This document shows, piece by piece, positions 8,222-24,077 of a stretch of 24,537 bases of DNA (positions within the stretch are counted from its first letter, which is position 1; each line of letters starts with the position of its first letter). The stretch is from the IMG/VR virus record IMGVR_UViG_3300020203_000327, positions 1 to 24,537 of that record. One strand, written 5' to 3'. The notes below the pieces were generated by a model that was not told the origin of the DNA, made no database searches, and saw nothing but the letters and a program-made list of their open reading frames with translations. Position numbers and translations under genes: made by a program. This DNA comes from a virus.

Positions 8222-8226
8222 AATCT

Positions 8227-8255
8227 ATTATATGTCAATACGTGGGTTAGGTCAA
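8227..8255 (-). promoter_or_regulatory. Sigma70-type promoter before the internal virion genes
   Basis: On the minus strand a -35 box TTGACC (8255-8250) is followed by exactly 17 nt and a consensus -10 box TATAAT (8232-8227). That is 5/6 plus 6/6 matches with ideal spacing. The -35 overlaps the stop codon region of the upstream gene. Expected transcription start is about 8220, that is at the ATG of the 307-aa gene, implying a leaderless mRNA. It would drive the three internal protein genes separately from the rest of the late block. Confidence 0.65.
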
Positions 8256-8768
8256 TAGGGTCGTGAAGATGGTGCCGCCTTTGTTTTTTGCAACCTTGTA
8301 AGTTAATCCGACGGTGTCAGTGTGAAAGCCCCAATCACCATTTGCAGGATACTCGGCAGTAGAGGCAGGTGCCGCAGAAGTGGTATCGCCCTTGTATCTG
8401 TCAGCCTTGATCTTATCTGCGGCAGACATGAAGCCATCTGCCACGTTGGTTGCGGCTAAGTGCAGGCTGCCTCCTGCTCTAGCTCCGTGCTGGCTATCTG
8501 TGATAGCGCCAGTAAATGAGCCGAAAGAAGCATAGACGACAGATTGCCCATTATAGATCCCTGCTTTCAGTTCCCCGCGCTCAAGGTTAAATACAATGTC
8601 ACCACGACGAATGCCTTCAGGTAGAGCCTGTGCCGTATCGACCAAAACAATCAGATCGGAACCTGCATTTAACTGATCTTCTAGTTGCTGAAAAATAGTT
8701 TCGATACCAGCCTGCAATCGGCTAGTATCAAAATTCTTTAAGCTAGAATCTAAAAATATGCGGGGCAT
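8247..8768 (-). CDS. Tail fibre/virion module protein (173 aa)
   Basis: I chose the ATG at 8768 (MPRIFLDSS...) because an earlier in-frame ATG at 8861 would overlap the upstream gene by 80 nt. The 173-aa product contains a module common in phage fibres and other virion proteins: QHGARAGGSLHLAATNVADG followed by FMSAADKIKAD (residues about 92-122). A short amphipathic N-terminal region precedes it. The C-terminus (GFHTDTVGLTYKVAKNKGG) looks beta-rich. Its place between the 730-aa tail protein and the internal proteins supports a minor tail or appendage component. The segment before the ATG is CCTTCTTTCAG, with no Shine-Dalgarno. Confidence 0.6.
   Translation of the reverse strand: MPRIFLDSSLKNFDTSRLQAGIETIFQQLEDQLNAGSDLIVLVDTAQALPEGIRRGDIVFNLERGELKAGIYNGQSVVYASFGSFTGAITDSQHGARAGGSLHLAATNVADGFMSAADKIKADRYKGDTTSAAPASTAEYPANGDWGFHTDTVGLTYKVAKNKGGTIFTTLLT
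8288..8301. repeat. Near-copy of the 14-bp palindrome (13/14)
   Basis: TTGCAACCTTGTAA has one arm mismatch (T for C). It lies in the other allowed frame (Y-K-V-A) near the end of the 173-aa gene, about 40 bp upstream of the promoter. Confidence 0.65.
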
Positions 8769-8781
8769 CTGAAAGAAGGGA

Positions 8782-10974
8782 TTACGGATTAACGCGCGGC
8801 TTGAGCACCATGCTTGCAATGCGCCATTGCTGGTATCCTCGGTTAATGACTTCCAACCCAAACATTTTTACAAGCTCGGCTGGAATCGTCTCTTGTGCAA
8901 ACCATGCATCACTCGGCTCGTTGGCGTCAATGCCGTAGCCCATTTGCAAGGGTGCAAATTGCTGATAAGTGTTGTCGCGCTCACGATACCAGCGCACAAG
9001 AGTGTTGCTGGTATTGGCGTCCACTCCCTGTTGAGTCAGCCAGATTTCCAGAAGCTGCTTGCTAGTTGCAGGCTGGTTGAAGTCAAAGTATTTCAGCAGG
9101 CGGCACTCGATCAATCCTACATAGAACTTTGCGCCGGCAACGGGCACAGGATTAAATGCTGTCAAGACATTGCCGATGACAGGACGAATCCAGTCAAAAG
9201 TTAAGGTGTGTGCAGTAACTGCGGAGATGCGCGCCATCTGTTCTGCTTGCCCATTAGCATCAGTAACCATGACCCAATTTCCGATCATGCCGTCATCGAC
9301 GATGTTGAATGCAGGATCGGCTCCAGCCGTGGTGATAGAATTGGAAGTTGCAAGGTTGCAAGTTCCAGTAAAAGCACCCACATCAGGCAACCAGTTGCCC
9401 CATACGTTTTCCACTAACGCTTGTCCAAGGAATCCAGTTTGTGTGCCTACGAAAGTCTTGGTGCCGCCAGTAAGAGTGTCTTGAATCGAGGCGGAGCATA
9501 GCACGTCCTGATCGTTGCTGAATCCCCAAAAGCCGGTAGGGGCATGCTGGTAAATTAGGTAGTTGACCAGACTGATGGATGCTACAGTGCTAATCCAGAT
9601 GCAGTTCAATTCAGTGCGAGGATCATATGCTCCATGCGCCAGCAACTGCCGAGTGCGGTCTTGCGTAAGCGCGCGCAGTGCTTTTGGAATAGGGCCAGAG
9701 ATTGGAACCTGTGTGATTCCGTCGCTTTGCACGATTGCAAAATTCTTGTAGTCCAATCCCCATAAGACTGTTTGCCCGTCTCCCGTCACTGCGGCGAACT
9801 GCGAGAAATGCGCGCTGACTGAATATACATCAGAGATAATACGCAGCGTATTCTCGAAGGCGGAAGTTCCCGCAGACCGCAGATTGAGAGTATAGCACTT
9901 CGCCGGATACTCGGTGTCGAGTTTGAGTGTTGCGTTGTTTGGAACAGCGGCGAGAGCGGTGCCCATTCCGCCACCGACTTTGAAGGCGTATTGTTGAGGG
10001 ACATTTATATCTCCGATGATTTCGGTAAATCCCCACGAGAAAGGATTCCGAGGTTTGCTGCGATATAGTGTAGTGGCCGGCCCTTGAATAATGAGTTTGC
10101 CACTACCTGCGGAGGGCAATGCGACAGGAGTAATACCGTCGATTGTGACCGTAGCAGTAGTAGCACTCAACCACAGAAAACGAAATGTGCCGGCGTTGTC
10201 CATGCCACCGCTCAGGATAGCCGCCAATGTGATGTTCTGCCCATTGCGACCATCAAACCATCTGTCCGTGCCAGAGAGAGTAAGCAGAGCGGTAGAACCG
10301 GTATGCGTATTGCTCCACGTAGCCTCTGCTGCGAACGGTAAATTGCCAAACCCCCACCAATAAGGATCGACAAAGACGGTAAACTGAAATTGCGGAGCTT
10401 CAAAATTGTCAATCTGGACTTGATCGACACCGGCTACAGGGTTGTTATCCGTGAATGTAGTTGTGCCTGCAATACCATTGTTCACCACTTGGGTTAAAAA
10501 GAAAGCCTGCCCCGCTTCACCTGCGGTTTGTGCTTCGATCTCTGTGGCAAAGAATGCCGTGCGAAAGATCCAGATTACATCCACACCTGCCTGCGTAGTC
10601 TTTGTAACCGTGCCGAGAATCTTTCGACTACCTGCGCCAGTGTAGCGGTAAGTCCTAGGAGGGGAAGGATTGCCGCGAGGATATAGTTTGCCGTTAATGG
10701 CAGAGTCGGTTTCGACAAAGCCAAATCGGGAAGAGGCATAGACATAGACGTAGGCTGCCCACTGGTTATTGGGGAGCAAACCTACTCCATCGTCTGCAAT
10801 GCTTGGGACGACAGACGGAACTTGCAAGCCTGCAAGATATACATTACCTCGCGAGTCGATGACTTTGACTTTCTCTTCGCCATTCGCTCGCACTGCCAGT
10901 CCGACGACAGGACTGGAAGCAAACGAATCTTTCGATCGCTTTTGGGTGCCAGTAATAATTGAAGTGAGTGGCAT
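8782..10974 (-). CDS. Large tail protein, probably tail nozzle/tubular type (730 aa)
   Basis: A 730-aa beta-rich protein without signal peptide or membrane segments. The N-terminus (TQKRSKDSF then VRANGEEKVKVIDSRGNVYL) and repeated Trp-, Thr- and Gly-rich blocks such as GFWGFSNDQDVLCSASIQDT read like a beta-propeller or sandwich protein of the T7 gp12 or P22 gp10 kind. It ends MFGLEVINRGYQQWRIASMV, like other phage proteins of this class. It follows the receptor-binding-like gene by 2 nt. Four perfect palindromes lie inside, three in the Ala-x-Leu/Val-Gln frame and one in the Cys-Asn-Leu-Ala frame. The nozzle assignment rests on size, composition and order. Confidence 0.65.
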   Translation of the reverse strand: MPLTSIITGTQKRSKDSFASSPVVGLAVRANGEEKVKVIDSRGNVYLAGLQVPSVVPSIADDGVGLLPNNQWAAYVYVYASSRFGFVETDSAINGKLYPRGNPSPPRTYRYTGAGSRKILGTVTKTTQAGVDVIWIFRTAFFATEIEAQTAGEAGQAFFLTQVVNNGIAGTTTFTDNNPVAGVDQVQIDNFEAPQFQFTVFVDPYWWGFGNLPFAAEATWSNTHTGSTALLTLSGTDRWFDGRNGQNITLAAILSGGMDNAGTFRFLWLSATTATVTIDGITPVALPSAGSGKLIIQGPATTLYRSKPRNPFSWGFTEIIGDINVPQQYAFKVGGGMGTALAAVPNNATLKLDTEYPAKCYTLNLRSAGTSAFENTLRIISDVYSVSAHFSQFAAVTGDGQTVLWGLDYKNFAIVQSDGITQVPISGPIPKALRALTQDRTRQLLAHGAYDPRTELNCIWISTVASISLVNYLIYQHAPTGFWGFSNDQDVLCSASIQDTLTGGTKTFVGTQTGFLGQALVENVWGNWLPDVGAFTGTCNLATSNSITTAGADPAFNIVDDGMIGNWVMVTDANGQAEQMARISAVTAHTLTFDWIRPVIGNVLTAFNPVPVAGAKFYVGLIECRLLKYFDFNQPATSKQLLEIWLTQQGVDANTSNTLVRWYRERDNTYQQFAPLQMGYGIDANEPSDAWFAQETIPAELVKMFGLEVINRGYQQWRIASMVLKPRVNP
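8944..8957. repeat. 14-bp palindrome, centre AGGG, arms extended
   Basis: TTGCA-AGGG-TGCAA; flanks extend the arms to ATTTGCA/TGCAAAT (7 bp). Encodes F-A-P-L-Q in the 730-aa gene. Confidence 0.95.
9348..9361. repeat. 14-bp palindrome, centre AGGT
   Basis: TTGCA-AGGT-TGCAA; read in the second frame, C-N-L-A, in the 730-aa gene. Confidence 0.95.
9727..9740. repeat. 14-bp palindrome, centre CGAT
   Basis: TTGCA-CGAT-TGCAA; perfect arms, unusual centre. Encodes F-A-I-V-Q. Confidence 0.9.
10822..10835. repeat. 14-bp palindrome, centre AGCC
   Basis: TTGCA-AGCC-TGCAA; encodes L-A-G-L-Q near the start of the 730-aa protein. Confidence 0.95.
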
Positions 10975-10976
10975 AT

Positions 10977-11840
10977 TTAGAAAGTTAGTGTGCCGTAGAA
11001 TTCAAATTCAGCCATACAGAAAAAGTTATCGCCGTTAGAATTAGCTCCAGTTTGAAGCACACGTAAATAGCGATAAGCCCCTGCGCCTACAACAGCTTGT
11101 GATGCCCAATCGTTAGACGCTGCAATGGTGGCGTTTGCCGTTTGAGTATTGAGATCAGTCCACGTTGCACCGTCAAATCCGGCTACCGTAATGGCGCTAA
11201 CAAAATTAGTTCCTTGCAGTTTCCAGTTACGTGGGAGATTTGTTCCAGTGCGCCCACGAATAGAGTAATGATTAGGAGTTATTGTAACTCCTGCGCCTAA
11301 ATCAATTCCCATCCACGAATTGACAGCATCGGAAGTAAAGGTATCATTAGTTGCGCGATCCACCAAATCCCCTGCGGCGCCGAATCCTATAGAACTCATT
11401 AACGCAACTATACGACCGGAAGTATGAGGATTCGTCCACGCCACTGCTCCAAAGTTGGTGCCAATGAAATAGCAAGCACCATTTACATCTCCGTTTGAAA
11501 CAAATGTGAGTGTGGAGGAGCCGAATGCCAGTAGATTAGTTTTCTTCCACAAGTCGGTGGCGTAACAGATGTAAAATGCATTTGCATCCGCAGAGTATTG
11601 GCCCGCAGTTCCAGTGCTTGTAGCATTGACCGGAGGAGGCGTAACGTAGCTGCCAGCGCCACCGCCGCCTCCACTACCAAAAGTCACCCATGCGCTATTG
11701 CCTGCATTGCGCTGTTTGACCAGATTAGCAGTTGTATCCGCCCACCACTTACCGGCACCTACTGCACCGGGATCGGCAGGTTGAATGTAATGAAATGGAA
11801 CGTGGAGTTCGACTCCAGCTAGAGCATCATGTTCAGGCAT
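10977..11840 (-). CDS. Receptor-binding-like protein with discoidin (F5/8 type C) domain
   Basis: This 287-aa protein has three recognisable parts. Residues about 12-55 hold the fibre/adhesin motif HYIQPADPGAVGAGKWWADT with VKQRNAGNSAWV. After a Gly linker, residues 64-105 carry a second common phage virion module, STGTAGQYSADANAFYICYA then LWKKTNL. Residues about 110-287 look like a discoidin/F5-8 type C beta-sandwich: substrate-binding-style WMGIDLGAG near 175, RNWKLQGTN near 203, and the ending YRYLRVLQTGANSNGDNF with AEFEFYGTL. Such domains bind surface glycans or lipids, so a host-attachment role is likely. It sits between the tail nozzle-like genes. The start is preceded by AAAAATCTTT, not a Shine-Dalgarno. 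Confidence 0.7.
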   Translation of the reverse strand: MPEHDALAGVELHVPFHYIQPADPGAVGAGKWWADTTANLVKQRNAGNSAWVTFGSGGGGGAGSYVTPPPVNATSTGTAGQYSADANAFYICYATDLWKKTNLLAFGSSTLTFVSNGDVNGACYFIGTNFGAVAWTNPHTSGRIVALMSSIGFGAAGDLVDRATNDTFTSDAVNSWMGIDLGAGVTITPNHYSIRGRTGTNLPRNWKLQGTNFVSAITVAGFDGATWTDLNTQTANATIAASNDWASQAVVGAGAYRYLRVLQTGANSNGDNFFCMAEFEFYGTLTF

Positions 11841-14430: not shown

Positions 14431-14431
14431 A

Positions 14432-14578
14432 TCAGATTTTTCCTAAGAGAATCAAGATGACTAACACGACCAGCACCAATCCCAAACCACCGTAAGCCCG
14501 CCCTCCATAGCCATAGCCGCCAGTGGGAAGACCGCCGAGAAGCAGCAAGATAAGTATGATAATGAGGAAGGTGCTCAT
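14432..14578 (-). CDS. Small two-helix membrane protein (DUF3309-like), holin candidate
   Basis: A 48-aa ORF with two hydrophobic helices (residues 4-18 and 32-46) around a Gly/Tyr-rich turn PTGGYGYGGRAYGG, ending LLGKI. The pattern, hydrophobic-LP-x-x-Y-G-x-G-hydrophobic-LLGxI, is that of small DUF3309 membrane proteins. It starts inside the stop of the lipoprotein gene (TAATG) and ends 1 nt before the endolysin, so it is very likely translated. Lying between spanin-like genes and an endolysin, it is the best holin candidate in the window, but DUF3309 has no established holin role that I know of. Confidence 0.7.
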   Translation of the reverse strand: MSTFLIIILILLLLGGLPTGGYGYGGRAYGGLGLVLVVLVILILLGKI

Positions 14579-15182: not shown

Positions 15183-15191
15183 AGCAGTTAT

Positions 15192-15205
15192 TTGCAAGGC
15201 TGCAA
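15192..15205. repeat. 14-bp palindrome in intergenic gap, centre AGGC
   Basis: TTGCA-AGGC-TGCAA in the 25-bp gap 15183-15207, 9 nt before the i-spanin-like ATG; arms extend to TTTGCA/TGCAAA. Confidence 0.96.
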
Positions 15206-15207
15206 AA

Positions 15208-15525
15208 TTAGATGGGGAGTTCTGTTACAGTAAAGCCATTAGACCAAGTAGTTTGCCAAGGATACATTACATTTTCCGTAGCACTATCAGAGCTTCCGGC
15301 ATCAGAATAATACTGCCAAGAACCTGCGACATCATTCCAGACAACGGTATGATAACCATCGAACAGTGCTTCGTAAAATGATCTGCCGTTTTGTGTTCCA
15401 ATGCGGGGAAGTATTACATCAACATTAGGGCCGACGACGTGGATATCCGACAAGATCGGTGGCGGCGGGGGTGGCGCCGCTTCTCCCCCGGCGTAGTAAA
15501 GACTTAAGGCAATGAAGGCACCCAT
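15208..15525 (-). CDS. Hypothetical protein, 105 aa, Pro-rich linker
   Basis: I do not recognise a family. The first 14 residues are mildly hydrophobic (MGAFIALSLYYAGG), then comes a run of six prolines (residues 18-23), then a Trp/Tyr-rich, probably beta domain (GRSFYEALFDGYHTVVWNDV). It follows the 80-aa gene by 9 nt and precedes the lysis genes. The layout (short anchor, proline linker, small beta domain) would suit a small virion decoration or fibre-like part, but this is only a guess. Confidence 0.6.
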   Translation of the reverse strand: MGAFIALSLYYAGGEAAPPPPPPILSDIHVVGPNVDVILPRIGTQNGRSFYEALFDGYHTVVWNDVAGSWQYYSDAGSSDSATENVMYPWQTTWSNGFTVTELPI

Positions 15526-15534
15526 TGCCGTAGG

Positions 15535-15777
15535 CTACTTGACGTAGATGAAAGTGGCGGTGCCAGTAAAAACCATGCGGTCAACTCGGCAAAGCACACG
15601 CCCGACAGGCAAAGTGAATGCAGTAACCGCACCCGCATTAGCAGGCGAGGCAGGAAATTCGTAGGTGATTTCGCTGATGACGAGAGCTGTTTCAGCAAAA
15701 ACCATGAGGGCATTGCGATCAACGGTTCCGTTGGTGACAGTTTCGGTTGGGCCTTGTGGGACGATGTCGGAGTTCAT
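15535..15777 (-). CDS. Hypothetical virion-associated protein, 80 aa
   Basis: An 80-aa protein, Thr/Val/Ala-rich and probably all-beta (VDRMVFTGTATFIYVK at the end), without membrane segments. No family recognised. It lies directly downstream of a strong hairpin and a palindromic repeat in the leader, and upstream of the 105-aa gene. The ATG is preceded by ACTACTCCT, with no Shine-Dalgarno. Position in the head-gene block suggests a small structural protein. Confidence 0.6.
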   Translation of the reverse strand: MNSDIVPQGPTETVTNGTVDRNALMVFAETALVISEITYEFPASPANAGAVTAFTLPVGRVLCRVDRMVFTGTATFIYVK

Positions 15778-15785
15778 AGGAGTAG

Positions 15786-15799
15786 TTGCAGGGTTGCAA
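15786..15799. repeat. 14-bp palindrome in intergenic gap, centre GGGT
   Basis: TTGCA-GGGT-TGCAA, 8 nt upstream of the 80-aa gene's ATG and just downstream (minus strand) of the UUCG hairpin. Confidence 0.96.
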
Positions 15800-15812
15800 A
15801 AAAGATAGTGCA

Positions 15813-15842
15813 GGGTGCCCCAGCCCGAAGGCTAAAGCACCC
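15813..15842 (-). terminator. UUCG-loop hairpin downstream of the 142-aa gene
   Basis: On the minus strand GGGTGC-TTT-AGCC is followed by a TTCG loop and GGCT-GGG-GCACCC, giving a 13-bp stem if the three U-G wobbles pair, capped by C(UUCG)G. It lies 9 nt after the stop. A run of T begins about 9 nt after the stem, too far for a textbook intrinsic terminator, so it may be an attenuator or an mRNA 3'-end stabiliser. Confidence 0.6.
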
Positions 15843-15851
15843 CACAGAGGA

Positions 15852-16280
15852 TCAGGCGTATTGCCCGGATGGCGATGGGAAGAGCGGAGTCACTTCCATA
15901 TAGATCAAGGCCGCACCTGCGGTAGCACCCGCAGCAGTGTTCTTGATAAAGATGTCAGTATCCGCAACGATACGAAACTTCGTGTTGGCATTTGCCGCAG
16001 GATAAAACCCCACGGTGCCCTCAGTGATGTCTGCTGCGGCCAAGAACTGATCGGCAGCAGCAGCGTTGGAGCCTACGGTAAGCACGTGCGTGCCCGTAAC
16101 GAAGGCGGTAGTGACTTCCGCAAAGAATTGCAGCAGGACTGGATTCTTGGCGTCAGCACGAATGGTCGCAACTTTGACTCCGGCAGCAATACCGGCAGTA
16201 TTGAAGAGTGCAGCGAACGTGAGCATCGCAGCGACATTGCCGTTGAGTATCGGAGTTGAAGGAATGGAAATATGTTGCAT
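15852..16280 (-). CDS. Probable abundant virion protein, 142 aa
   Basis: A 142-aa Ala/Thr/Val-rich protein predicted to be all-beta, with no signal peptide (MQHISIPSTPILNGNVAAML start; FRIVADTDIFIKNTAAGATA near 103-122; EVTPLFPSPSG end). No named family recognised. It follows the major capsid gene and is bracketed by strong hairpins on both sides (16307-16338 and 15813-15842), so its message may be separately bounded and abundant. A capsid-decoration or head-fibre protein is plausible. Its start lies 5 nt after a palindromic repeat; no Shine-Dalgarno (GCAAAACTT). Confidence 0.65.
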   Translation of the reverse strand: MQHISIPSTPILNGNVAAMLTFAALFNTAGIAAGVKVATIRADAKNPVLLQFFAEVTTAFVTGTHVLTVGSNAAAADQFLAAADITEGTVGFYPAANANTKFRIVADTDIFIKNTAAGATAGAALIYMEVTPLFPSPSGQYA

Positions 16281-16285
16281 AAGTT

Positions 16286-16299
16286 TTGCAGGGTTGCAA
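16286..16299. repeat. 14-bp palindrome in intergenic gap, centre GGGT
   Basis: TTGCA-GGGT-TGCAA between the capsid hairpin and the 142-aa gene, 5 nt from its ATG, where a ribosome-binding site would normally be. Confidence 0.96.
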
Positions 16300-16306
16300 G
16301 AGGAGT

Positions 16307-16338
16307 GGGGTCACCGCGATGGCTAGCACGGTGACCCC
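16307..16338 (-). terminator. Perfect 10-bp hairpin after the major capsid gene
   Basis: GGGGTCACCG (16307-16316) and CGGTGACCCC (16329-16338) pair perfectly around a 12-nt loop, 14 nt after the capsid stop. On the minus strand it is followed by ACTCCTCTT, only weakly U-rich. It looks like a partial terminator or attenuator that sets capsid expression above the downstream genes. Confidence 0.65.
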
Positions 16339-16352
16339 TGCGCCCCTAGGAA

Positions 16353-17303
16353 TCAAGCACCAATCGCGGCCACGCCACGCTTGTTGTCGTAACCAACAGT
16401 GAACCGCATGCGCAGGCGGCTGAACCACGCATCCGGGTTGCCGCCGAACGGCGTCAACGGAGTGATGTCAGGATAGACGTTCACGATCATCTTCAGCCCG
16501 TAGTTGGGGCTGGACGGCTCCCAAGTGATGAACCAGTGGTCGGGGTTCGTGAGATGCCGGAGGGGCATCACTTCGAGCCGGAACTGTTTCGTGAGGGCGT
16601 TGATCTTGTTGTCCGTCGTATTCGGATTCATCACACTGTTCACGACTTCCACCGCCTGCTGCCAGAGCACAGGAGAGATAGTCGGGACGTAGAGACGGAA
16701 CGACCCGGTGTAGCTGATCGGCAATCCTCGGCTGTCGAGCAGATTGTAGAGCAGGGTGGTGATGACGTAGAACACCGTCTCGACCGTGATCGGAAGGTTC
16801 TGCGCAACGATGTTCGACCACGTGCCGGACAAGTTTTCGAGCGTATTCAGCGCAGAGAACAGCGGCAGCGCAGTTCCGGCCAAGTCGTAACCTTGGTCGT
16901 ATTGCTGCACCGTGAACCCGTTGTTGAACAGATTCGCTGCGGCAATGTCCATCAGCGTGTTCGCGCCGTAGAGCATGGTTCGCGGCCGATTCGCCAGCAA
17001 GCCCCACTCTTCCTGCTCGATCATCTGGCGTTCAATTTGGTAGCCCGTCCGGTATCCAACCGGAGTGAAGGTTGCGACCGGCCCCTTCGGCGGAGTTTTG
17101 AAGGGGATCGGTTCGAGATCGCGGTTACGCTCGGGCAATCCGAGGCCACCCATATAGGTGGACTTGATAAACGCCTTGGTAGTTTCGTCGACCGTGAGGA
17201 ACGACGGATACTCTTTCGGGAGTTCGTTATACATTTCGTCTTTGATCGCGGAAAAATTCCGGTCAAAGTGTTCGACGAAGGCTTCAACAACGACAGCGGC
17301 CAT
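16353..17303 (-). CDS. Major capsid protein
   Basis: A 316-aa protein, the usual size for a HK97-fold capsid subunit without a delta domain. The N-terminal helix (VVEAFVEHFDRNFSAIKDEM), the middle TFTPVGYRTGYQIERQMIEQ and ANRPRTMLYGANTLMDIAAA, and the C-terminus FSRLRMRFTVGYDNKRGVAA are characteristic of podoviral/siphoviral capsid proteins (spine helix, P-domain, and R-x-R-x-GYD end). Order scaffold-decoration-capsid supports it. The base composition is more GC-rich than neighbouring genes (about 55% in sampled lines against about 47%). The leader carries CTAA repeats giving stops in all three frames, and a strong hairpin follows. It contains no palindromic repeat; sites lie in the gaps on both sides. 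Confidence 0.92.
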   Translation of the reverse strand: MAAVVVEAFVEHFDRNFSAIKDEMYNELPKEYPSFLTVDETTKAFIKSTYMGGLGLPERNRDLEPIPFKTPPKGPVATFTPVGYRTGYQIERQMIEQEEWGLLANRPRTMLYGANTLMDIAAANLFNNGFTVQQYDQGYDLAGTALPLFSALNTLENLSGTWSNIVAQNLPITVETVFYVITTLLYNLLDSRGLPISYTGSFRLYVPTISPVLWQQAVEVVNSVMNPNTTDNKINALTKQFRLEVMPLRHLTNPDHWFITWEPSSPNYGLKMIVNVYPDITPLTPFGGNPDAWFSRLRMRFTVGYDNKRGVAAIGA

Positions 17304-17323
17304 AGTAGTTAGTTAGTTAGTGA
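17304..17323 (-). promoter_or_regulatory. CTAA-repeat leader before the capsid ATG
   Basis: The 20 nt before the capsid ATG contain CTAACTAACTAACTA on the minus strand, with TAA codons at 17319-17317, 17315-17313 and 17311-17309, one in each frame. There is no Shine-Dalgarno. It would stop any ribosome reading through from upstream just before the capsid start. Confidence 0.5.
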
Positions 17324-17329
17324 GTTGAG

Positions 17330-17343
17330 TTGCAGGCTTGCAA
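17330..17343. repeat. 14-bp palindrome in intergenic gap, centre GGCT
   Basis: TTGCA-GGCT-TGCAA, directly abutting the stop codon of the 180-aa gene and 26 nt before the capsid ATG. Confidence 0.96.
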
Positions 17344-17886
17344 TTAGCCTTGGATTTTGCTTGGGATAATTTTGACGCGGACACGTCCGTTGTAGTCGTC
17401 CGACAGCACTTGATCGACGAACGAAACCACGGAGAACAAAGTCGCCGTCGTTTCAGTAGGATCGAGGAACTGGAAGCCGGAATACTGACCGGAGGTTGCA
17501 GTGGCGATACCATACACACCACCGATGACAACGTCTGCCGGTTTGGCTGCACTTGCGCCAATAACCGGAACGCCTGCGGTGACAACTCCCACGTTGATCT
17601 CGAACTGAGCATCGAGAGGCGAGAAGCAGTAGTGGTTTTCTCCTTCACCGGCAGGCCGTGGAAGGATTTCCGGCGGGCCTTCAGTGGAAGTGTGGCTCTT
17701 GTCCGGGGTCTGACCGTAACAGAGGACGCCATCACTAGGAATGAGCGTGAGAACGCCCGCGACGAGGGAGAGCAAGGCATACGCCCTGAACGTGTTGGAG
17801 CCGTCCGTGACGGCCGGACGCATGACATTCATGTTTCCGAACTGACGAGTCAGATCAGGCATGAGCAGTGGAGCTTGACGAGGCAT
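17344..17886 (-). CDS. Probable head decoration/stabilisation protein (180 aa)
   Basis: A 180-aa protein immediately upstream of the capsid gene. It starts MPRQAPLLMPDLTRQFGNMN, has a non-polar Gly/Val-rich middle, and ends in short beta blocks: VIGGVYGIATATSGQYSGFQ, then a hydrophobic strand and DDYNGRVRVKIIPSKIQG. The arrangement scaffold - small protein - this - capsid is that of capsid-decoration or head-stabilising proteins in many phages, but I cannot assign a named family. No Shine-Dalgarno precedes the ATG (AACTATCATC). It is free of palindromes; the gaps on both sides each have one. Confidence 0.6.
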   Translation of the reverse strand: MPRQAPLLMPDLTRQFGNMNVMRPAVTDGSNTFRAYALLSLVAGVLTLIPSDGVLCYGQTPDKSHTSTEGPPEILPRPAGEGENHYCFSPLDAQFEINVGVVTAGVPVIGASAAKPADVVIGGVYGIATATSGQYSGFQFLDPTETTATLFSVVSFVDQVLSDDYNGRVRVKIIPSKIQG

Positions 17887-17913
17887 GATGATAGTTACTT
17901 TCTATTTGGTTTC

Positions 17914-17927
17914 TTGCAAGGTTGCAA
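17914..17927. repeat. 14-bp palindrome in intergenic gap, centre AGGT
   Basis: TTGCA-AGGT-TGCAA in the 52-bp gap 17887-17938, 27 nt before the 180-aa gene's ATG. Confidence 0.96.
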
Positions 17928-17938
17928 GGATTGGTTAC

Positions 17939-18478
17939 TTACGCCCGACGAACGATACGGGTTCCCGAGGGCTTGGCAGCCATCGTGGCCAACGGGGGCA
18001 ATTCGATCCGTTGACCATTTGTGTCCGGGACAGGATTCATAGCTATATCCCCCTCTTCCTGCTCCTCTTTGCCAGCGACTTTTGCGATGCGTGCATCGCT
18101 AAGTTGGCCGGGATCGGAAGGAGCGGCTCCTGCAATGGTTTCTCCCGTTCTTTCCTGACGCAGACGGGACTTACCTACGTTGCCGTAAATTGCATTCACG
18201 GCATCTTGCACTACACGCGAACGGCAGAGCAGGATGTGTTCGCCACTCAGAAGTGCCACCTTTTGAGGTTTGCCTTCAGAGTTACGCCACACTTCCCAAC
18301 CATCTGCGGTTGCACTTGCGCCGGGCATCCATTCACGCTCACTAGCAGCTTGAACTGAAGGCCCAACTTTGACCCACTTAGGTGCCCACTTTTTCCGGTC
18401 AAAGCCAATCGGAAGGCTAAGAGGACCGGGAGCTTCAGCGGCACCACCTAGCGGTCCGCGAACAATTTGGATACCCAT
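17939..18478 (-). CDS. Hypothetical head-region protein (179 aa)
   Basis: A 179-aa protein of unknown family. The first 90 residues (GFDRKKWAPKWVKVGPSVQA, then ATADGWEVWRNSEGKPQKVA, LLSGEHILLCRSR) look like a small folded domain. The rest is charged and low-complexity (KVAGKEEQEEGDIAMNPVPD) with a basic C-terminus (GTRIVRRA). It starts inside the scaffold stop codon (TAATG), so it is translated together with the scaffold. It may be a head assembly or minor capsid component. Confidence 0.65.
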   Translation of the reverse strand: MGIQIVRGPLGGAAEAPGPLSLPIGFDRKKWAPKWVKVGPSVQAASEREWMPGASATADGWEVWRNSEGKPQKVALLSGEHILLCRSRVVQDAVNAIYGNVGKSRLRQERTGETIAGAAPSDPGQLSDARIAKVAGKEEQEEGDIAMNPVPDTNGQRIELPPLATMAAKPSGTRIVRRA

Positions 18479-19440
18479 TACCGTGATCCTCTCTTAGCCG
18501 GTGCTCTATAGCCCGGAGCTTTGACACCACCTTCACCTGTAGCCCACTTACCCAACACGACCTGAAGTGCCGCATCGGTGTCCGAATTAAGGGCATGGCG
18601 GGCACCATTGGGATCGAATTGTTGAGGCTGAGAAGGCATAGAACCTGCACCCGGATAGGTGAGACGGCCGATATTAGGAAGTGACACAGTTGGAGTTGTA
18701 ACAGGTTTGGTTGAAGTAGGGGGAATCTCCCCTCTTTGCAAGGCTGCAAAATGCGCCATGCCGGTGAGGTTCAGCACAATTTCAGGAGTGACCTGCTGAC
18801 CGTGCTTTGCCATCTCCTCGACTTGCTGCCAGACGGTTTGGGCAAGTGTAGGATTTTGCAGTGCTCCGGTAGTATCCGTTGCGACTGCTTGGTTCCATGC
18901 GAACTGAGCTTCACGCTCAATGACAGATGTGGCGAACGGACGAAGGTCGTTGCCAATTTCTCCTTTCAGGGTGTTACCGTAATCCGTCATCATCTCAAGC
19001 ATGAGTTCAGCTTGAGGGCCAGCGTGTTCCGGCTTGACGCCGCGCTGAATCAGGATTTGGGTGAACTTTTCCAGTTGCGGTTTTTTGGGAGTTTCCTTTG
19101 GGCCACCAGTCAGCCGGTCGACATCACCTTTCAGCTTGTCGTAGTTGGACTGGAAGTCTTTGCGGCGCTGCTCCTCGTGCTTAGCAAGCTGTGCTGCCAT
19201 ATCTTTCTCTTTTTGCAAGGTTGCAAAACCGATACGGCTCTTTTCGATAATCTCACGAACTTCCGGCGGAAGATCGTCAAGGTCAATACCAACTGTGGGA
19301 TCGACAAACTTAGTAGAGGAATCATCTAGCTCGCTGCCACCCGCTTGAGCCGCAGCAGGATTCCCTTGGGAACCACTGCCACCGCCGCCGGTATCAGGAG
19401 CTAGGAAGATTCTCTTCCAACTGTGACTATAGTATCGCAT
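18478..19440 (-). CDS. Capsid scaffolding protein
   Basis: A 320-aa protein with the layout usual for scaffolds: a Gly/Ser/Asp-rich acidic N-terminus (residues 15-55), a charged coiled coil (residues 60-113, e.g. KEKDMAAQLAKHEEQRRKDF), a helical middle, a Pro/Thr-rich linker, and a basic C-terminus (GYRAPAKRGSR) suited to capsid contact. It lies between portal and capsid genes. It would direct capsid assembly and then leave or be degraded. The start MRYYSHSWKR is the only Met before residue 82; CCTCAGTAT precedes it, not a Shine-Dalgarno. An acidic Gly-rich opening after residue 12 leaves some doubt about the exact N-terminus. Two palindromes lie inside. Confidence 0.8.
   Translation of the reverse strand: MRYYSHSWKRIFLAPDTGGGGSGSQGNPAAAQAGGSELDDSSTKFVDPTVGIDLDDLPPEVREIIEKSRIGFATLQKEKDMAAQLAKHEEQRRKDFQSNYDKLKGDVDRLTGGPKETPKKPQLEKFTQILIQRGVKPEHAGPQAELMLEMMTDYGNTLKGEIGNDLRPFATSVIEREAQFAWNQAVATDTTGALQNPTLAQTVWQQVEEMAKHGQQVTPEIVLNLTGMAHFAALQRGEIPPTSTKPVTTPTVSLPNIGRLTYPGAGSMPSQPQQFDPNGARHALNSDTDAALQVVLGKWATGEGGVKAPGYRAPAKRGSR
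18736..18749. repeat. 14-bp palindrome, centre AGGC
   Basis: TTGCA-AGGC-TGCAA; encodes F-A-A-L-Q in the scaffold gene. Confidence 0.95.
19213..19226. repeat. 14-bp palindrome, centre AGGT, arms extended
   Basis: TTGCA-AGGT-TGCAA with arms extended to TTTTGCA/TGCAAAA; encodes F-A-T-L-Q at codons 72-76 of the scaffold, inside its coiled coil. Confidence 0.93.
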
Positions 19441-19508
19441 ATACTGAGGCTTGTGTCAAGAGGCAGATTAGATGACTTCTCGTGGCTACCCCCACCGACA
19501 AGAAGTTT

Positions 19509-19522
19509 TTGCAAGGTTGCAA
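19509..19522. repeat. 14-bp palindrome in intergenic gap, longest arms
   Basis: TTTTTGCA-AGGT-TGCAAAAA: 8-bp arms, the longest uninterrupted T/A extension seen. It is in the 85-bp gap 19441-19525, the widest gap in the window, 3 nt after the stop of the 68-aa gene. The rest of this gap holds no ORF. Confidence 0.96.
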
Positions 19523-19525
19523 AAA

Positions 19526-19732
19526 TTATCTTCGCATTTCAGCTAGAAAGAATTGTTCAAGAGTCTGTAACTCTTTAGCTCCGGCTTGAACTTGGAGTAA
19601 CTGATCAGTGCTGGTGCAGCCTGTAATTTGTTTCAATTTCTCTGCGACCAGTCCATCGAAAAGCCGATTCCATTCAGATGTCGGACGAGTCTTAAATGCT
19701 TCCAGCATTTCGCCGGGAATTTGATAGGCCAT
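19526..19732 (-). CDS. Small hypothetical protein between portal and scaffold (68 aa)
   Basis: A 68-aa, mostly helical protein (EMLEAFKTRPTSEWNRLFDG, then AGAKELQTLEQFFLAEMRR) without signal or membrane segments. It starts 1 nt after the portal stop, so it is probably co-translated. I do not recognise the family. Small helical proteins at this place are common in podoviral genomes, often without known function. One Cys pair (C39 region, GCTSTDQ) is present but no metal motif. Confidence 0.7.
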   Translation of the reverse strand: MAYQIPGEMLEAFKTRPTSEWNRLFDGLVAEKLKQITGCTSTDQLLQVQAGAKELQTLEQFFLAEMRR

Positions 19733-19733
19733 G

Positions 19734-22034
19734 TTAAGCTGCGCCTCCCCCTTGTTGAGCTACTTGTCCGGCCTGCTGCGTAGGCGCGCTGCCTCCACCT
19801 TTCATTCCCGGAGCACCACCTTGCTGGTCAGGCGGATTATCTTGATGCACTTTGAGTTGCGCTTGAGCAACAGCCATCTGCTGCTGCACCAGCATCATCT
19901 GCATCTGCAATTCGTGAATCAACTGATGCTGTTTGATCTGCTCAATCAAATATGGGGCATTCGCGGCATAAGCCTCCGTGGTATTCCAGACGCTATCCCT
20001 GTCTTTCAGGAACGCAGTCTTGATGCGAATTGCCAACTGATGATCTTGGTCAGGATCGACCATAACAGGATAGCCGAGATACGTTTGGCAGGCTTGCATG
20101 GTTGCAAATTGAATCTGCTGCTCCCGACCACCATCCTGCACGATCTCTCCACCATCGAAGCCCATGTCATCAAGCAGAGTTTTCCAGAGTTTGGCACGAT
20201 CAAGTCCCGGTTCCATACGACTGGATTCGAGGATATAACGAACATTCTGCTGCTTAACGATCTTTTCAATGAAGGTGCTGCCGACGTTGGTAATTACGCC
20301 GACGTTAATCCACATGTCTTCAGGTGTAATGGCAAATCCAAACTGGCCGGTGATGTTCTTGAGCAAGTCGGGATCAATCCATGAACCAGAATAGTCCCAT
20401 ACGCGATGCGCGTAATTGCCATGCAGGTCGCTCGACACCGCATCAATGTCCGAAGTAATAGAAGACATACTTGCCTGAAACGCATTACTTGCTTCGGTTG
20501 CGGACGTGCGACTGCCCATCGCTTTGCCAAGGATAGCATCCACGGCTTTTGATGTGGTTTGCGCTCCGTCTCGCAAAAGTTGCAGCATTGCAACCGTAGA
20601 GGAAGTGCTGTCTTGCTGCGTCTTATAGCCGAAGTCATTCGGCCCATTGACGACCAGCTTCGCTCCCTTTGCATTCAAGTCCTGATTGCGAGCAGGAGAA
20701 CTCGCTTGCACCCATGCCGGTGTATCGTTGATCAAATCCTTGTTATCCAAGAATTGTTCCATGCAGAGCGTGATTTCCTTCCAGTGATTATAGAGAAGCT
20801 GTCCAATGGAAGGAGCATAAGCGCCTGAATCCAAATCAGGCATGTGGCAAGAAGCATAAATGGGCAGACGACGTTTCGGATAGTAATTTTCCTGCAAACG
20901 AAGAATCACTTGCGAGCCAGAATGCATGTTCGGCCCGAAGGTTTCCATGACGAACCTTCTGAAAGGAACGGGATTGCCGGATGCATCTTTTTCAAATTCG
21001 CCGGTCATTGGGTCAAACGGCATAATTGGAAACAGCGTCCATTTTGCCTCGACGGAATACTCTGGACGGAGAATCTGCGCCAACGTCGAACTGTTCACTT
21101 CCTTGAGTCCCATCGCATTGAACGTAGTTTTGAGCGCATTTTGCACGGAAGTTGTTTCCGGGTCGCTATAGACGTATTGCCCCGCCTGCAGTTTGTCCAG
21201 ATTCTCATATCCGAACGGATTGATCGTAGGGTCATACTGGTTTTGCAAGATTGCAAAACGCGAAATTTCATCGAACATGAAAGGGCAAGGCTGGCTCTCC
21301 ATCTCGTAAACTGGAAGACGCCAGTTGAACCAGAGCTTACGAATCGAAATCGGCTCGAAAGTAGTGCCGATCTCTGTAATCTCCGGCTTACTCACCATGT
21401 TTCCCATATTATCCTGCCGCGAGATCATTTCGACACGGAACTTGAAATCCGACATCACAAACGCACAGCCGTAAGTGTAGTGATGCCGATACGCTACCAG
21501 CGAATTTCTTTTCAGATGGTTGTTGCCGCTGTTCCACTGTAGCAATGCGTTACCCGCTGCAATGCGGTCTGCGAGTGGACGGTATTCCGGTGTAGCATTC
21601 GGCTGTTTGATGTAATCAGGAATGCCAAACTGGCAGGGCAATCCTTCCTTGAATGCAATAAAATAGGTGATGTCAGTCAGACGCTGAATAGCATCATGGA
21701 CTACGGAGTCGGAAACGCGAGCACGTTCCCGATTGGCCTGATCTGCCTCGTTTTTCACTCGGCTGTCGTCGTGCCGAGTATTGTCGAACAAGTCGTCGTA
21801 AGGAATCGTAATGCGCGCCATTTCGAGCATCTTGTCCCACATCGGCTCAAATGCCCTACGCTCTTGAACCTGAGGCCAAACGTAGTTTTGCATCAGCCAC
21901 ATCATCATTCGTTTCTGCACTTCAGGGTCGATACTCCCGGCCAAGTTAGGGGGAAATTGGTGTGCAGGTCTGGACGGAGTTCCATTGGCGAACTTCGACA
22001 TGAGGTTATCAGGGATTTGAGGAATATAGGACAT
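19734..22034 (-). CDS. Portal (head-tail connector) protein
   Basis: A 766-aa protein directly downstream of terminase. It has no membrane segment. The N-terminus, Met/Trp-rich EVQKRMMMWLMQNYVWPQVQ then FEPMWDKMLEMARITIPYDD, is the usual helical opening of podoviral portals. The middle includes ASCHMPDLDSGAYAPSIGQL, the long helix region FLDNKDLINDTPAWVQASSP, and AVDAILGKAMGSRTSATEAS, typical of the crown/stem. The last 70 residues are a Gln/Met-rich coiled coil followed by a Gly/Gln tail ending GGGAA. It would form the dodecameric ring through which DNA is packaged. The ATG is 2 nt from a palindromic repeat and has no Shine-Dalgarno. Three palindromes lie inside. Confidence 0.9.
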   Translation of the reverse strand: MSYIPQIPDNLMSKFANGTPSRPAHQFPPNLAGSIDPEVQKRMMMWLMQNYVWPQVQERRAFEPMWDKMLEMARITIPYDDLFDNTRHDDSRVKNEADQANRERARVSDSVVHDAIQRLTDITYFIAFKEGLPCQFGIPDYIKQPNATPEYRPLADRIAAGNALLQWNSGNNHLKRNSLVAYRHHYTYGCAFVMSDFKFRVEMISRQDNMGNMVSKPEITEIGTTFEPISIRKLWFNWRLPVYEMESQPCPFMFDEISRFAILQNQYDPTINPFGYENLDKLQAGQYVYSDPETTSVQNALKTTFNAMGLKEVNSSTLAQILRPEYSVEAKWTLFPIMPFDPMTGEFEKDASGNPVPFRRFVMETFGPNMHSGSQVILRLQENYYPKRRLPIYASCHMPDLDSGAYAPSIGQLLYNHWKEITLCMEQFLDNKDLINDTPAWVQASSPARNQDLNAKGAKLVVNGPNDFGYKTQQDSTSSTVAMLQLLRDGAQTTSKAVDAILGKAMGSRTSATEASNAFQASMSSITSDIDAVSSDLHGNYAHRVWDYSGSWIDPDLLKNITGQFGFAITPEDMWINVGVITNVGSTFIEKIVKQQNVRYILESSRMEPGLDRAKLWKTLLDDMGFDGGEIVQDGGREQQIQFATMQACQTYLGYPVMVDPDQDHQLAIRIKTAFLKDRDSVWNTTEAYAANAPYLIEQIKQHQLIHELQMQMMLVQQQMAVAQAQLKVHQDNPPDQQGGAPGMKGGGSAPTQQAGQVAQQGGGAA
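20094..20107. repeat. 14-bp palindrome, centre TGGT
   Basis: TTGCA-TGGT-TGCAA; the only copy with T opening the centre. Encodes F-A-T-M-Q in the portal gene. Confidence 0.92.
20580..20593. repeat. 14-bp palindrome, centre GCAT
   Basis: TTGCA-GCAT-TGCAA; encodes V-A-M-L-Q in the portal gene. Confidence 0.92.
21243..21256. repeat. 14-bp palindrome, centre AGAT, arms extended
   Basis: Arms extend to GTTTTGCA/TGCAAAAC (8 bp) around centre AGAT; encodes F-A-I-L-Q in the portal gene. Confidence 0.94.
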
Positions 22035-22036
22035 AT

Positions 22037-22050
22037 TTGCAAGGCTGCAA
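22037..22050. repeat. 14-bp palindrome in intergenic gap, centre AGGC
   Basis: TTGCA-AGGC-TGCAA fills 14 of the 18 bp between the terminase stop and the portal ATG, occupying the position of a ribosome-binding site. Confidence 0.97.
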
Positions 22051-22052
22051 GT

Positions 22053-24077
22053 TTAAGCTACGCTACGGAGATTTTCTAAGTCTTCTTCATCTACCCAATC
22101 GGCATAACGAGGAGCAGAGAACGAAGTCCAAACATATGGCCCACATGCGAGATAGCATGTAGCGTCCAGTTCATCATCGCCATGTGTGGGAACTTTGTCT
22201 TTCGCTTCTCCCTTGTTCGGCCCACTGGCGAGACGATCCCAAAACAGCCCTTCCATTTTGCCTAATGCGGCATCTACTCCCGGCCCATTGTGTAGGAAAT
22301 AGATATGACAACCCGGTGAGCGCCCCGTTATAGGGTGCGTATGGTATTCACTTTTGTCCAGCTTGTTATCCAGGTCTAACGCGCGATCTTCTGGAGCCAT
22401 GTGCGTGCTTTCCGTAACAATCAGCCCCGCTTTGATATAATTCAACGAATTAGGCAAACCTGTGTTCTCGTCAATCTTGAACAAATGGTAGTCGGCAGCA
22501 GTAAGCACAGCCGGCTCGCTGTTCGCTTTTGAATGGACTTCCCTAAGGTTGTAGTCTTCTTTGCCTTTTCCGTAGCGTTCCTTCTTCAGAGCATTGTTGC
22601 TCAGTCGCACGATGTCTTTGCAGCGTTCGCGAATAGTTTTCTGCCGCTCAACGTAGTAACGATAGATATACCAGACGTTACCGGGAGTGAGCAGTCCCCA
22701 ACAACACACGCTAGGATGATCGTAACCCGGATCAAATCCTCGGTAAATCCTCCCATCTGGATGCCGTTCAAATAATTCTGCAATCGTCCACGGCACAGTA
22801 TGGAATACTCGATCAAGCCGCGAGAGAACCAAAGGAGAACTGCTGTAAAAGATGCCGTCCAAACGCGCATCGCCTTCCTTTTTCCCTTCCCACATGCGAA
22901 TTAAATCATCCCGTTTTGCGAGCGATATGATATGCGCCGGTGCCTTTCGCGCAGAAAAGCGAGTAAAGATGTGGCTGTGTAAGGGCAGTTGTTCCTCACC
23001 TTTATATACTTTAAAAGCAAGCGCTGTTTTCGCCCCGACATTGCGAGCTTCGTAAGGAGTATAGTCCCATGATCCAAAACCATTAGCTTTGAAACGCTGC
23101 TTAACTTCATTCAGAATTTGCGGTGGAAGCCCTTCGGTGAGAATGATCGCACGAACGGCCGACCCCGACCATTTAGTATCCTCTGACTCGTAGGATTTGC
23201 AAATGATGCGATGCGTCGTTGGAGTAGGATTGGTTGTGCTCGTGGAGTCAACCGTAAATGACAGTTCAGAATCTGACCAATTTCGGATGTAGCAAGCAGG
23301 GAGCCAACACTTCCACTCGGGCATAAGGACGTTCTTATGGAAATCATTATCCGGGGCACCAAGCCAGATGGTTCCGCTGTCCGATACGGGAGAAGAAGGC
23401 CAACAACCAGCAAACGCTTGAGGAACCAGTTTTTGCAAGGCTGCAAATTTTTCAATATTGGAAGTTTCAAGGTGCGATTTGGTAGGATCACCCTTCAATT
23501 CAGGGTGCATTTTCAAAGTGAACCGAATTAGGTCGAGATCCTCTATCTTAGGCCGGGGGAGAATCTGAACGGGACGATCGTAAATGTCGTAATAGAGTCG
23601 ATCGTCCACATCGGGGTTGTCAACGAAAGTGGTGCCCTTATCTTCGGGATTTGGCGCGAGACGGGCGGCAAACATTTCCCAATTTGGGTCATTTCCGAGG
23701 ATATAGAGACAAGTATTGATGACGAAGCAGGCAGTTTTGCCGATACGATTTGCGGCGAAGCAAACAACAAAATCAATGCCCCAAATCCACGAATTGAGTA
23801 ACAGAGATTGCTCATAAGACGGCTTGAAATAAGCGATAGGATACTGCGCTTTGATTCCTTCCTGAGTTTGTTTGAAAGTTTGCTCGACAAACTCCAACAT
23901 CTCACGCAATGCGTCACCTTCAGGTGATTTATCTTTCAGTTTGTATGCACGTGTAGCTAATAAGTGCAGCATTCCTTCGACATCTTTCGGGGGATGCTCC
24001 CACCAGTAAGATTCCTGCTTGAGTTCAGGCTCGTCCTCCAGCATTGCTGCCGGCTTGGCTCGTCTTTTGATAGCCAT
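22053..24077 (-). CDS. terL: Terminase large subunit
   Basis: A 674-aa DNA-packaging motor with both expected domains. The ATPase half has a Walker A at residues 108-115 (AANRIGKT) and a Walker B ending in Glu at 310-315 (AIILTE). The RNase H-like nuclease half has the first acidic residue in YRGFDPGYDHP (D449), a second candidate in TAADYHLF (D529) and the last cluster HGDDELDA (632-639). It powers DNA translocation into the prohead through the portal and cuts the concatemer. Length is in the upper range for the family. The start overlaps the preceding stop by 1 nt (TAATG). One palindrome lies at residues 211-215. No small subunit is visible in the window. Confidence 0.97.
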   Translation of the reverse strand: MAIKRRAKPAAMLEDEPELKQESYWWEHPPKDVEGMLHLLATRAYKLKDKSPEGDALREMLEFVEQTFKQTQEGIKAQYPIAYFKPSYEQSLLLNSWIWGIDFVVCFAANRIGKTACFVINTCLYILGNDPNWEMFAARLAPNPEDKGTTFVDNPDVDDRLYYDIYDRPVQILPRPKIEDLDLIRFTLKMHPELKGDPTKSHLETSNIEKFAALQKLVPQAFAGCWPSSPVSDSGTIWLGAPDNDFHKNVLMPEWKCWLPACYIRNWSDSELSFTVDSTSTTNPTPTTHRIICKSYESEDTKWSGSAVRAIILTEGLPPQILNEVKQRFKANGFGSWDYTPYEARNVGAKTALAFKVYKGEEQLPLHSHIFTRFSARKAPAHIISLAKRDDLIRMWEGKKEGDARLDGIFYSSSPLVLSRLDRVFHTVPWTIAELFERHPDGRIYRGFDPGYDHPSVCCWGLLTPGNVWYIYRYYVERQKTIRERCKDIVRLSNNALKKERYGKGKEDYNLREVHSKANSEPAVLTAADYHLFKIDENTGLPNSLNYIKAGLIVTESTHMAPEDRALDLDNKLDKSEYHTHPITGRSPGCHIYFLHNGPGVDAALGKMEGLFWDRLASGPNKGEAKDKVPTHGDDELDATCYLACGPYVWTSFSAPRYADWVDEEDLENLRSVA
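23433..23446. repeat. 14-bp palindrome, centre AGGC
   Basis: TTGCA-AGGC-TGCAA; encodes F-A-A-L-Q in the terminase, between the Walker A and Walker B motifs. Confidence 0.95.

Follow-up and report, generated by a model that had tools for sequence, protein, structure and literature searches.

The stretch analysed here, a 24.5-kb fragment of a virus (positions 1 to 24,537 of IMG/VR record IMGVR_UViG_3300020203_000327; hereafter the window), carries a capsid gene, a likely portal gene and the gene for a terminase large subunit, and is punctuated along its length by one short palindrome, TTGCA-N4-TGCAA. Searching for perfect copies, we found 33, where about 0.023 would be expected by chance (24,537/4^10), and the reversed pattern, used as a control, has 0 copies in the window. 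When half-sites are paired by their spacing, 33 pairs lie at a spacing of 4 and 0-1 at any other, barring the self-overlap at -4. Copies with one mismatch are few (30, against a background of 13.6), and such near-sites are too sparse for G-U tolerance to be used. Eight of the perfect sites are intergenic and 25 intragenic, an arrangement that recurs across a whole group of related, uncultured phages.

A phage group that shares the array

With the terminase gene as query, ten IMG/VR loci were retrieved at 47-100% identity, and further contigs were added through a pattern search for the motif. All contigs of the group carry the palindrome, at about 0.85-1.4 sites per kb or roughly one every 700-1,100 bases, with one in most gaps and the remainder within genes. 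Among them, G002 spans 52 kb with 73 sites and appears nearly complete, since one helicase-primase gene is split across its ends, with both halves matching a single protein of G012. The dispersed palindrome is absent from the distant relatives BSP7, Krampus and two Manatee Spring phages, which share only the helicase-primase or the capsid. Terminase searches of bacterial genomes found no relative, and searches with the portal and capsid found no close phage record.

Two other contigs hold similar sites. L063 (IMGVR_UViG_3300037357_000051; 9.2 kb) has three TTGCA-N4-TGCAA sites, each with a different version of the core, or dialect. None of its genes matches G002, and it is possibly a further lineage. 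L029 (IMGVR_UViG_3300035148_000460), a 66%-GC phage contig, has four (G)GTTGCAACGTTGCAAC(C) palindromes crowded into 1.3 kb (124-1394), where they apparently lie in the spaces separating small genes. Its terminase (Terminase_6) looks unrelated, and the contig possibly represents an independent use of the same site.

Sites favour the gaps between genes

Genes were called with a codon-usage dynamic program made for this analysis, and the gap counts depend on these calls. The first-pass annotation had proposed that almost every real intergenic gap in the window holds one palindrome, citing eight sites in ten gaps. All eight are perfect copies at the positions it gave, and the count of ten is reasonable, because an apparent further gap at 14431-14578 turns out to be a small open reading frame (ORF; MSTFLIIILILLLLGGLPTGGYGYGG...), glycine- and leucine-rich and membrane-protein-like, which length-limited ORF lists miss. 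As for the two gaps listed as lacking a site, the one at 8222-8246 is indeed a promoter, 5 nt ahead of an ATG, while the one before a 109-residue gene is uncertain as a gap because the frame there is open as far as the window end. Likewise, the five sites between 15.2 and 18.5 kb lie in gaps in five cases out of five. The proposed gap placement holds, with the qualification that 25 of the 33 sites sit inside genes.

Eight of 33 compares with 1.1 expected in gaps by chance (P ~1e-5), and one small gene (ORF 11864..) was left uncalled, so that gaps in truth take up less of the window and the enrichment is understated. The excess, which the annotation had suggested looking for in related phages, recurs in G002 (26/73 sites against 6.5 expected), G004 (11/15 against 2.8), G006 (11/18 against 0.9), G007 (8 against 1.7), G008 (7 against 0.8) and G009 (9/14 against 0.8), with P from 1e-4 to 6e-11 in seven of the larger contigs; L026 shows no enrichment (1 against 0.6 expected), and several short fragments are uninformative. 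In ten contigs taken together, 100 gaps of 14-300 nt lie between co-directional genes; 71 of these hold a site, and they do so at all gap lengths. This comparison, named by the annotation as the one able to refute its proposal, upholds it. Sites in gaps are shifted towards the upstream stop codon. Their mean relative position is 0.33, a value as low as this arising in 0 of 5,000 simulations, and of 61 gap sites 29 are within 5 nt of the stop and 8 within 5 nt of the start.

Spacing, orientation and reading frame

The sites are evenly spaced. Where random placement would give a coefficient of variation (CV) of ~0.97, the window has 0.42 and G002 0.52, and the values within two gap-free giant tail genes are 0.40 and 0.55. 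As the CV is low even inside giant genes, the array covers the genome and not particular genes.

The sites are also oriented. Where the centre of the core is CC/GG, orientation can be scored, and in the window and G002 the CC lies on the sense strand in all 28 gap sites (CC:GG 7:0 and 21:0, respectively) and, within genes, in 37 cases out of 50 (12:2 and 25:11). The early block has a sole opposite-strand gene, whose site is reversed in G002 and in L140 alike. Of 135 in-gene sites, 122 share the reading frame [F/V/I]-A-x-L-Q; either of the other frames forces a cysteine. Since the gap sites need no frame, the palindrome reads as a site imposed on genes and not as a protein motif.

Lineage-specific cores are rewritten in place

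Whilst the half-sites TTGCA/TGCAA are common to the group, the core is specific to the lineage. The window mostly uses TTGCARSSYTGCAA, as does L140 in similar form; G002 uses TTTGCAGGGCTGCAAA, L012 TTGCAAGCTTGCAA, L007 mostly TTGTAACGTTACAA, and L008 and L013-L017 TTGCAACGTTGCAA, the L008-type dialect being a perfect palindrome. We compared the 23 in-gene sites of the window that lie in genes with a G002 homologue, and for 11 of them G002 has a site at the aligned codon. At the positions flanking the central dinucleotide, these G002 copies carry C at the second in 11/11 and G at the first in 10/11, a combination absent from the window. In the portal gene, for example, TTGCAATCTTGCAA is rewritten to TTGCAGTCCTGCAA. 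Across dialects, the matching peptide bears a site both in the portal (xFAxxQN) and in the terminase (FAxLQ, FVTLQ). From these alignments, the rewriting of cores at orthologous codons points to co-evolution with a trans-acting factor, and a dimeric binder that changed its specificity would be expected to drive just such a symmetric alteration of the two halves at many sites.

Promoters and translation signals

Ten promoters were found, of the form TTGAC.-16/18-TA...T, and most end 3-9 nt ahead of an ATG. Consensus sigma-70-type promoters stand at 8222-8246 in the window and at 18903-18937 in G002. None of the ten promoters is overlapped by a palindrome, the closest approach being in one gap, where a site comes within 9 bp of a -35 downstream of it; the sites neither overlap nor abut promoters, unlike promoter operators. 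Because the promoter at 8222-8246 stops so close to its ATG, the transcript is probably leaderless. Shine-Dalgarno (SD)-like motifs show no excess upstream of genes (22/192, or 11%, against 12% at random positions), so the palindrome is no substitute for an SD element of other genes. Together with the short distance from most promoters to the ATG, this suggests that these phages use leaderless or SD-free translation.

Candidate binding proteins

Two candidate binders from G002 were folded, 11056-11670 (+) and 8304-8915 (-), both found in two contigs only. The model of the former is unusable (predicted local distance difference test score, pLDDT, 51). The latter, a conserved early protein of 203 residues, gave a model of pLDDT 63, with a helical domain at ~80 and low confidence in the first 52 residues. 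This weak model matches ParB/KorB DNA-binding domains weakly (6s6h Z 4.9, 7bnr 4.2, 8qa9 4.0, 6t1f 3.7; best Foldseek E-value 1.7); there is no Pfam match, and no domain binding cytidine triphosphate (CTP) was seen, the first 52 residues being of low confidence. We regard the possible ParB/KorB likeness as a lead and no more. Between an AAA ATPase gene and the gene for this candidate DNA-binding protein lies a GroES (Cpn10) homologue (L009 7871-8218, in G002), and L140 has the same order.

Table 1. Palindromic sites and other features of the window, with their counterparts in G002
Feature	Position	Strand	Context
Site TTGCAGGCTTGCAA	227..240		in gene 2-6088 (-), frame FASLQ; orthologous G002 site
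Site TTGCAGCCTTGCAA	797..810		in gene; orthologous G002 site
Site TTGCACGGTTGCAA	1628..1641		in gene
Site TTGCAAGGCTGCAA	2243..2256		in gene; orthologous G002 site
Site TTGCAGCCTTGCAA	3137..3150		in gene; orthologous G002 site
Site TTGCAAGGGTGCAA	3311..3324		in gene
Site TTGCAAGGGTGCAA	4295..4308		in gene
Site TTGCAGGCTTGCAA	4916..4929		in gene
Site TTGCAAGGCTGCAA	6215..6228		in gene
Site TTGCAAGCTTGCAA	6932..6945		in gene
Site TTGCAAGCCTGCAA	8063..8076		in gene; orthologous G002 site
Promoter gap without site	8222..8246	-	TTGACC-17-TATAAT; -35 within end of preceding gene
Site TTGCAAGGGTGCAA	8944..8957		in gene; orthologous G002 site
Site TTGCAAGGTTGCAA	9348..9361		in gene, other frame (C-N-L-A); orthologous G002 site
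Site TTGCACGATTGCAA	9727..9740		in gene
Site TTGCAAGCCTGCAA	10822..10835		in gene
Gap site TTGCAAGGCTGCAA	11849..11862		1 nt past stop, 8 nt ahead of ATG
Site TTGCAAGCCTGCAA	13119..13132		in gene; orthologous G002 site
Site TTGCAAGGTTGCAA	13717..13730		in gene
Site TTGCAAGAATGCAA	14365..14378		in gene
Site TTGCAAGCCTGCAA	14769..14782		in gene
Gap site TTGCAAGGCTGCAA	15192..15205		
Gap site TTGCAGGGTTGCAA	15786..15799		same gap in G002 also has site
Gap site TTGCAGGGTTGCAA	16286..16299		
Gap site TTGCAGGCTTGCAA	17330..17343		upstream of capsid gene; same gap in G002 also has site
Gap site TTGCAAGGTTGCAA	17914..17927		
Site TTGCAAGGCTGCAA	18736..18749		in gene
Site TTGCAAGGTTGCAA	19213..19226		in gene; orthologous G002 site
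Gap site TTGCAAGGTTGCAA	19509..19522		
Site TTGCATGGTTGCAA	20094..20107		in gene
Site TTGCAGCATTGCAA	20580..20593		in gene
Site TTGCAAGATTGCAA	21243..21256		likely portal gene; matching peptide (xFAxxQN) has site in relatives whose fragments cover it
Gap site TTGCAAGGCTGCAA	22037..22050		18-nt gap; 2 nt from stop, 2 nt from ATG; same G002 gap has site
Terminase large subunit gene	22053..24077	-	query for relatives
Site TTGCAAGGCTGCAA	23433..23446		terminase gene (EKFAALQKL); orthologous G002 site

Discussion

What could a phage gain from a palindrome at nearly every kilobase? Our belief is evenly poised on the proposal that the sites form a genome-wide array for a dimeric, sequence-specific DNA-binding protein, most likely encoded by the phage, which affects passing RNA polymerase. 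The putative protein would bind the palindromes as a dimer and act on polymerase as a polar roadblock, or through pausing or termination, much like a stoperator, and every transcription unit would thereby be covered. Gaps would be the cheapest locations for such sites, and those within genes would be tolerated in the single frame that adds neither a cysteine nor a forced proline. In favour of the proposal stand the extreme enrichment, the dyad symmetry, the even spacing, the preference for gaps, the alignment of asymmetric cores with transcription, the distance kept from the promoters found and the dialects rewritten at orthologous positions. The best reading is that the array would target elongation or genome organisation rather than promoters. 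Several points weigh against the proposal: a strictly lytic phage would have no obvious use for a silencing array; G002 has replication and recombination genes, but no repressor or integrase was recognised among the ~30 of its proteins scanned (structural proteins only partly); both candidate binders gave low-confidence models; gene lengths may account for part of the even spacing; and the in-gene orientation is a bias only, which may partly reflect Ala versus Gly codons. Since that bias could partly be codon preference, the case for orientation leans more on the sites in gaps.

Perhaps transcription is not the target at all, and a ParB/KorB-like or nucleoid-type protein uses the array to condense, protect or segregate the replicating genome; we see a genuine but distinctly smaller chance of this. 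Even spacing throughout the genome, also within giant genes, the near absence of degenerate copies and a dyad size near that of parS or the 16-bp OB site would all fit, as would the weak structural matches of 8304-8915 and the ParB-like protein encoded by Cluster O phages, which carry similar dispersed dyads (PMC4351075). However, a Z below 5 on a low-confidence helical model lies within noise, the best Foldseek E-value is 1.7, the candidate was found in two contigs only, and an organising array offers no role for cores that point along transcription (28:0 in gaps). It is because of this orientation that we favour, by a modest margin, action on elongating polymerase over a purely genome-organising role. 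The first-pass annotation had pointed to sites close to an ATG and raised a part in ribosome binding or mRNA processing, which our results do not support. A small hairpin in the transcript, serving processing, stability or translation, would account for the sense-orientation bias and for every gap site lying in or between transcribed genes, and in phages without SD motifs other 5' signals are conceivable; yet we consider it unlikely. The distance from site to start codon is not fixed (-1 to 182 nt), the sites lean to the upstream stop, and an Rfam search gave no match. No T-run (U-tract in the transcript) follows the gap sites, and the GC-rich stem followed by a T-run that marks intrinsic terminators was not found. 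The flanks of gap sites vary independently, with no pairing covariation at positions -1/+14 (28 pairs against 24.9 expected; Fisher P 0.75), and the positions around the central dinucleotide change symmetrically between dialects, yet cannot pair in RNA because the enclosed loop would be 2 nt.

Less probable still is an operator array of a temperate phage, through which an immunity repressor would silence the prophage. Lineage dialects and orientation recall Cluster A stoperators in this respect (PMC6550527), but the nearly complete G002 yielded neither integrase nor repressor among the proteins scanned, no relative was found in bacterial genomes, and no site overlaps any of the promoters found. 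We find it very improbable that the motif is derived from the host, be it an uptake sequence, a HIP1-like repeat or a host nucleoid site, and passively carried. In favour of this idea, uptake sequences are comparable in density and likewise show local dialects. On the other hand, a 16-mer of the one dialect scanned gave 58 stretches in 84,980 bacterial and archaeal genomes, about as many as by chance and with at most three sites per fetched stretch, and within a single phage group the dialect changes in place from one relative to another.

Dispersed repeats are known from other phages. The Cluster O mycobacteriophages (Corndog, Catdawg) carry 17-bp dyad repeats, TGTTCGG-N3-CCGAACA, which are not promoter-linked and occur in phages without an integrase, and for which the authors favour a dimeric DNA-binding protein with a role other than transcription initiation (PMC4351075). 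On re-analysis, Catdawg has 34 sites, 19 of them in gaps (which make up 4.4% of its genome) and often 1-5 nt past a stop, with irregular spacing (CV 1.13). Both systems have dozens of near-invariant dyads per genome, enriched in gaps and not at promoters; the Cluster O array, however, is half as dense or less, irregularly spaced, and described as having no meaningful orientation and no dialects (PMC4351075). The half-sites TTGCA and TGTTCGG are unrelated in sequence, and the Cluster O repeat, used as a query, matched Mycobacterium phage records alone. The stoperators of Cluster A are likewise dispersed, lie in one orientation to transcription, have variants that track the repressor and are proposed to affect elongation (PMC6550527, PMC9283540). 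The present sites resemble them in being many, dispersed, mostly in one orientation (28:0 in gaps, 37:13 in genes) and variable between lineages. Whereas stoperators are asymmetric 13-bp sites for a monomeric repressor in temperate phages, ours have dyad-symmetric half-sites, are about twice as dense and evenly spaced, and come with no recognised repressor or integrase. Features of Cluster O repeats and of stoperators thus come together in the present array, with even spacing and in-place rewriting in addition.

Other systems are more distant. The OB sites of KorB (plasmid RK2) and the ParB-parS system have sites of similar size, with a weak structural hint from one G002 protein; but KorB, whose OB sites are proximal or distal to promoters, silences promoters via a CTP-dependent clamp and KorA (PMC11790492), and the present sites are not promoter-linked. 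SPBRE of SPbeta is also a repeated intergenic phage site, bound by one phage-encoded protein, MrpR, but numbers about ten sites in prophage promoter regions (PMC10516654). The start-associated sequences of Cluster K (PMC3203893) are, in the summary given in PMC4351075, short repeats near start codons and tied to translation starts, whereas the present sites lean to the upstream stop and lie mostly in genes.

Corndog-type dispersed dyad repeats have so far been described without a functional explanation. The phage group described here adds several lineages that differ in their version of the site, with the rewriting located at the same codons, and this lineage-specific rewriting means that the binding protein should be findable by co-variation or a simple pull-down. 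Could a strictly lytic lineage pair a dense, even, transcription-oriented ladder, spanning gaps as well as genes, with a co-evolving phage protein that controls elongation or folds the entire genome, as a 'chromatin' or elongation-control system not described before? We raise this tentatively, as a possibility that we hold to be somewhat doubtful. If the orientation effect does reflect action on RNA polymerase, these phages would have come to stoperator-like control by a second and independent path, one that uses dimeric sites and possibly needs no lysogeny.

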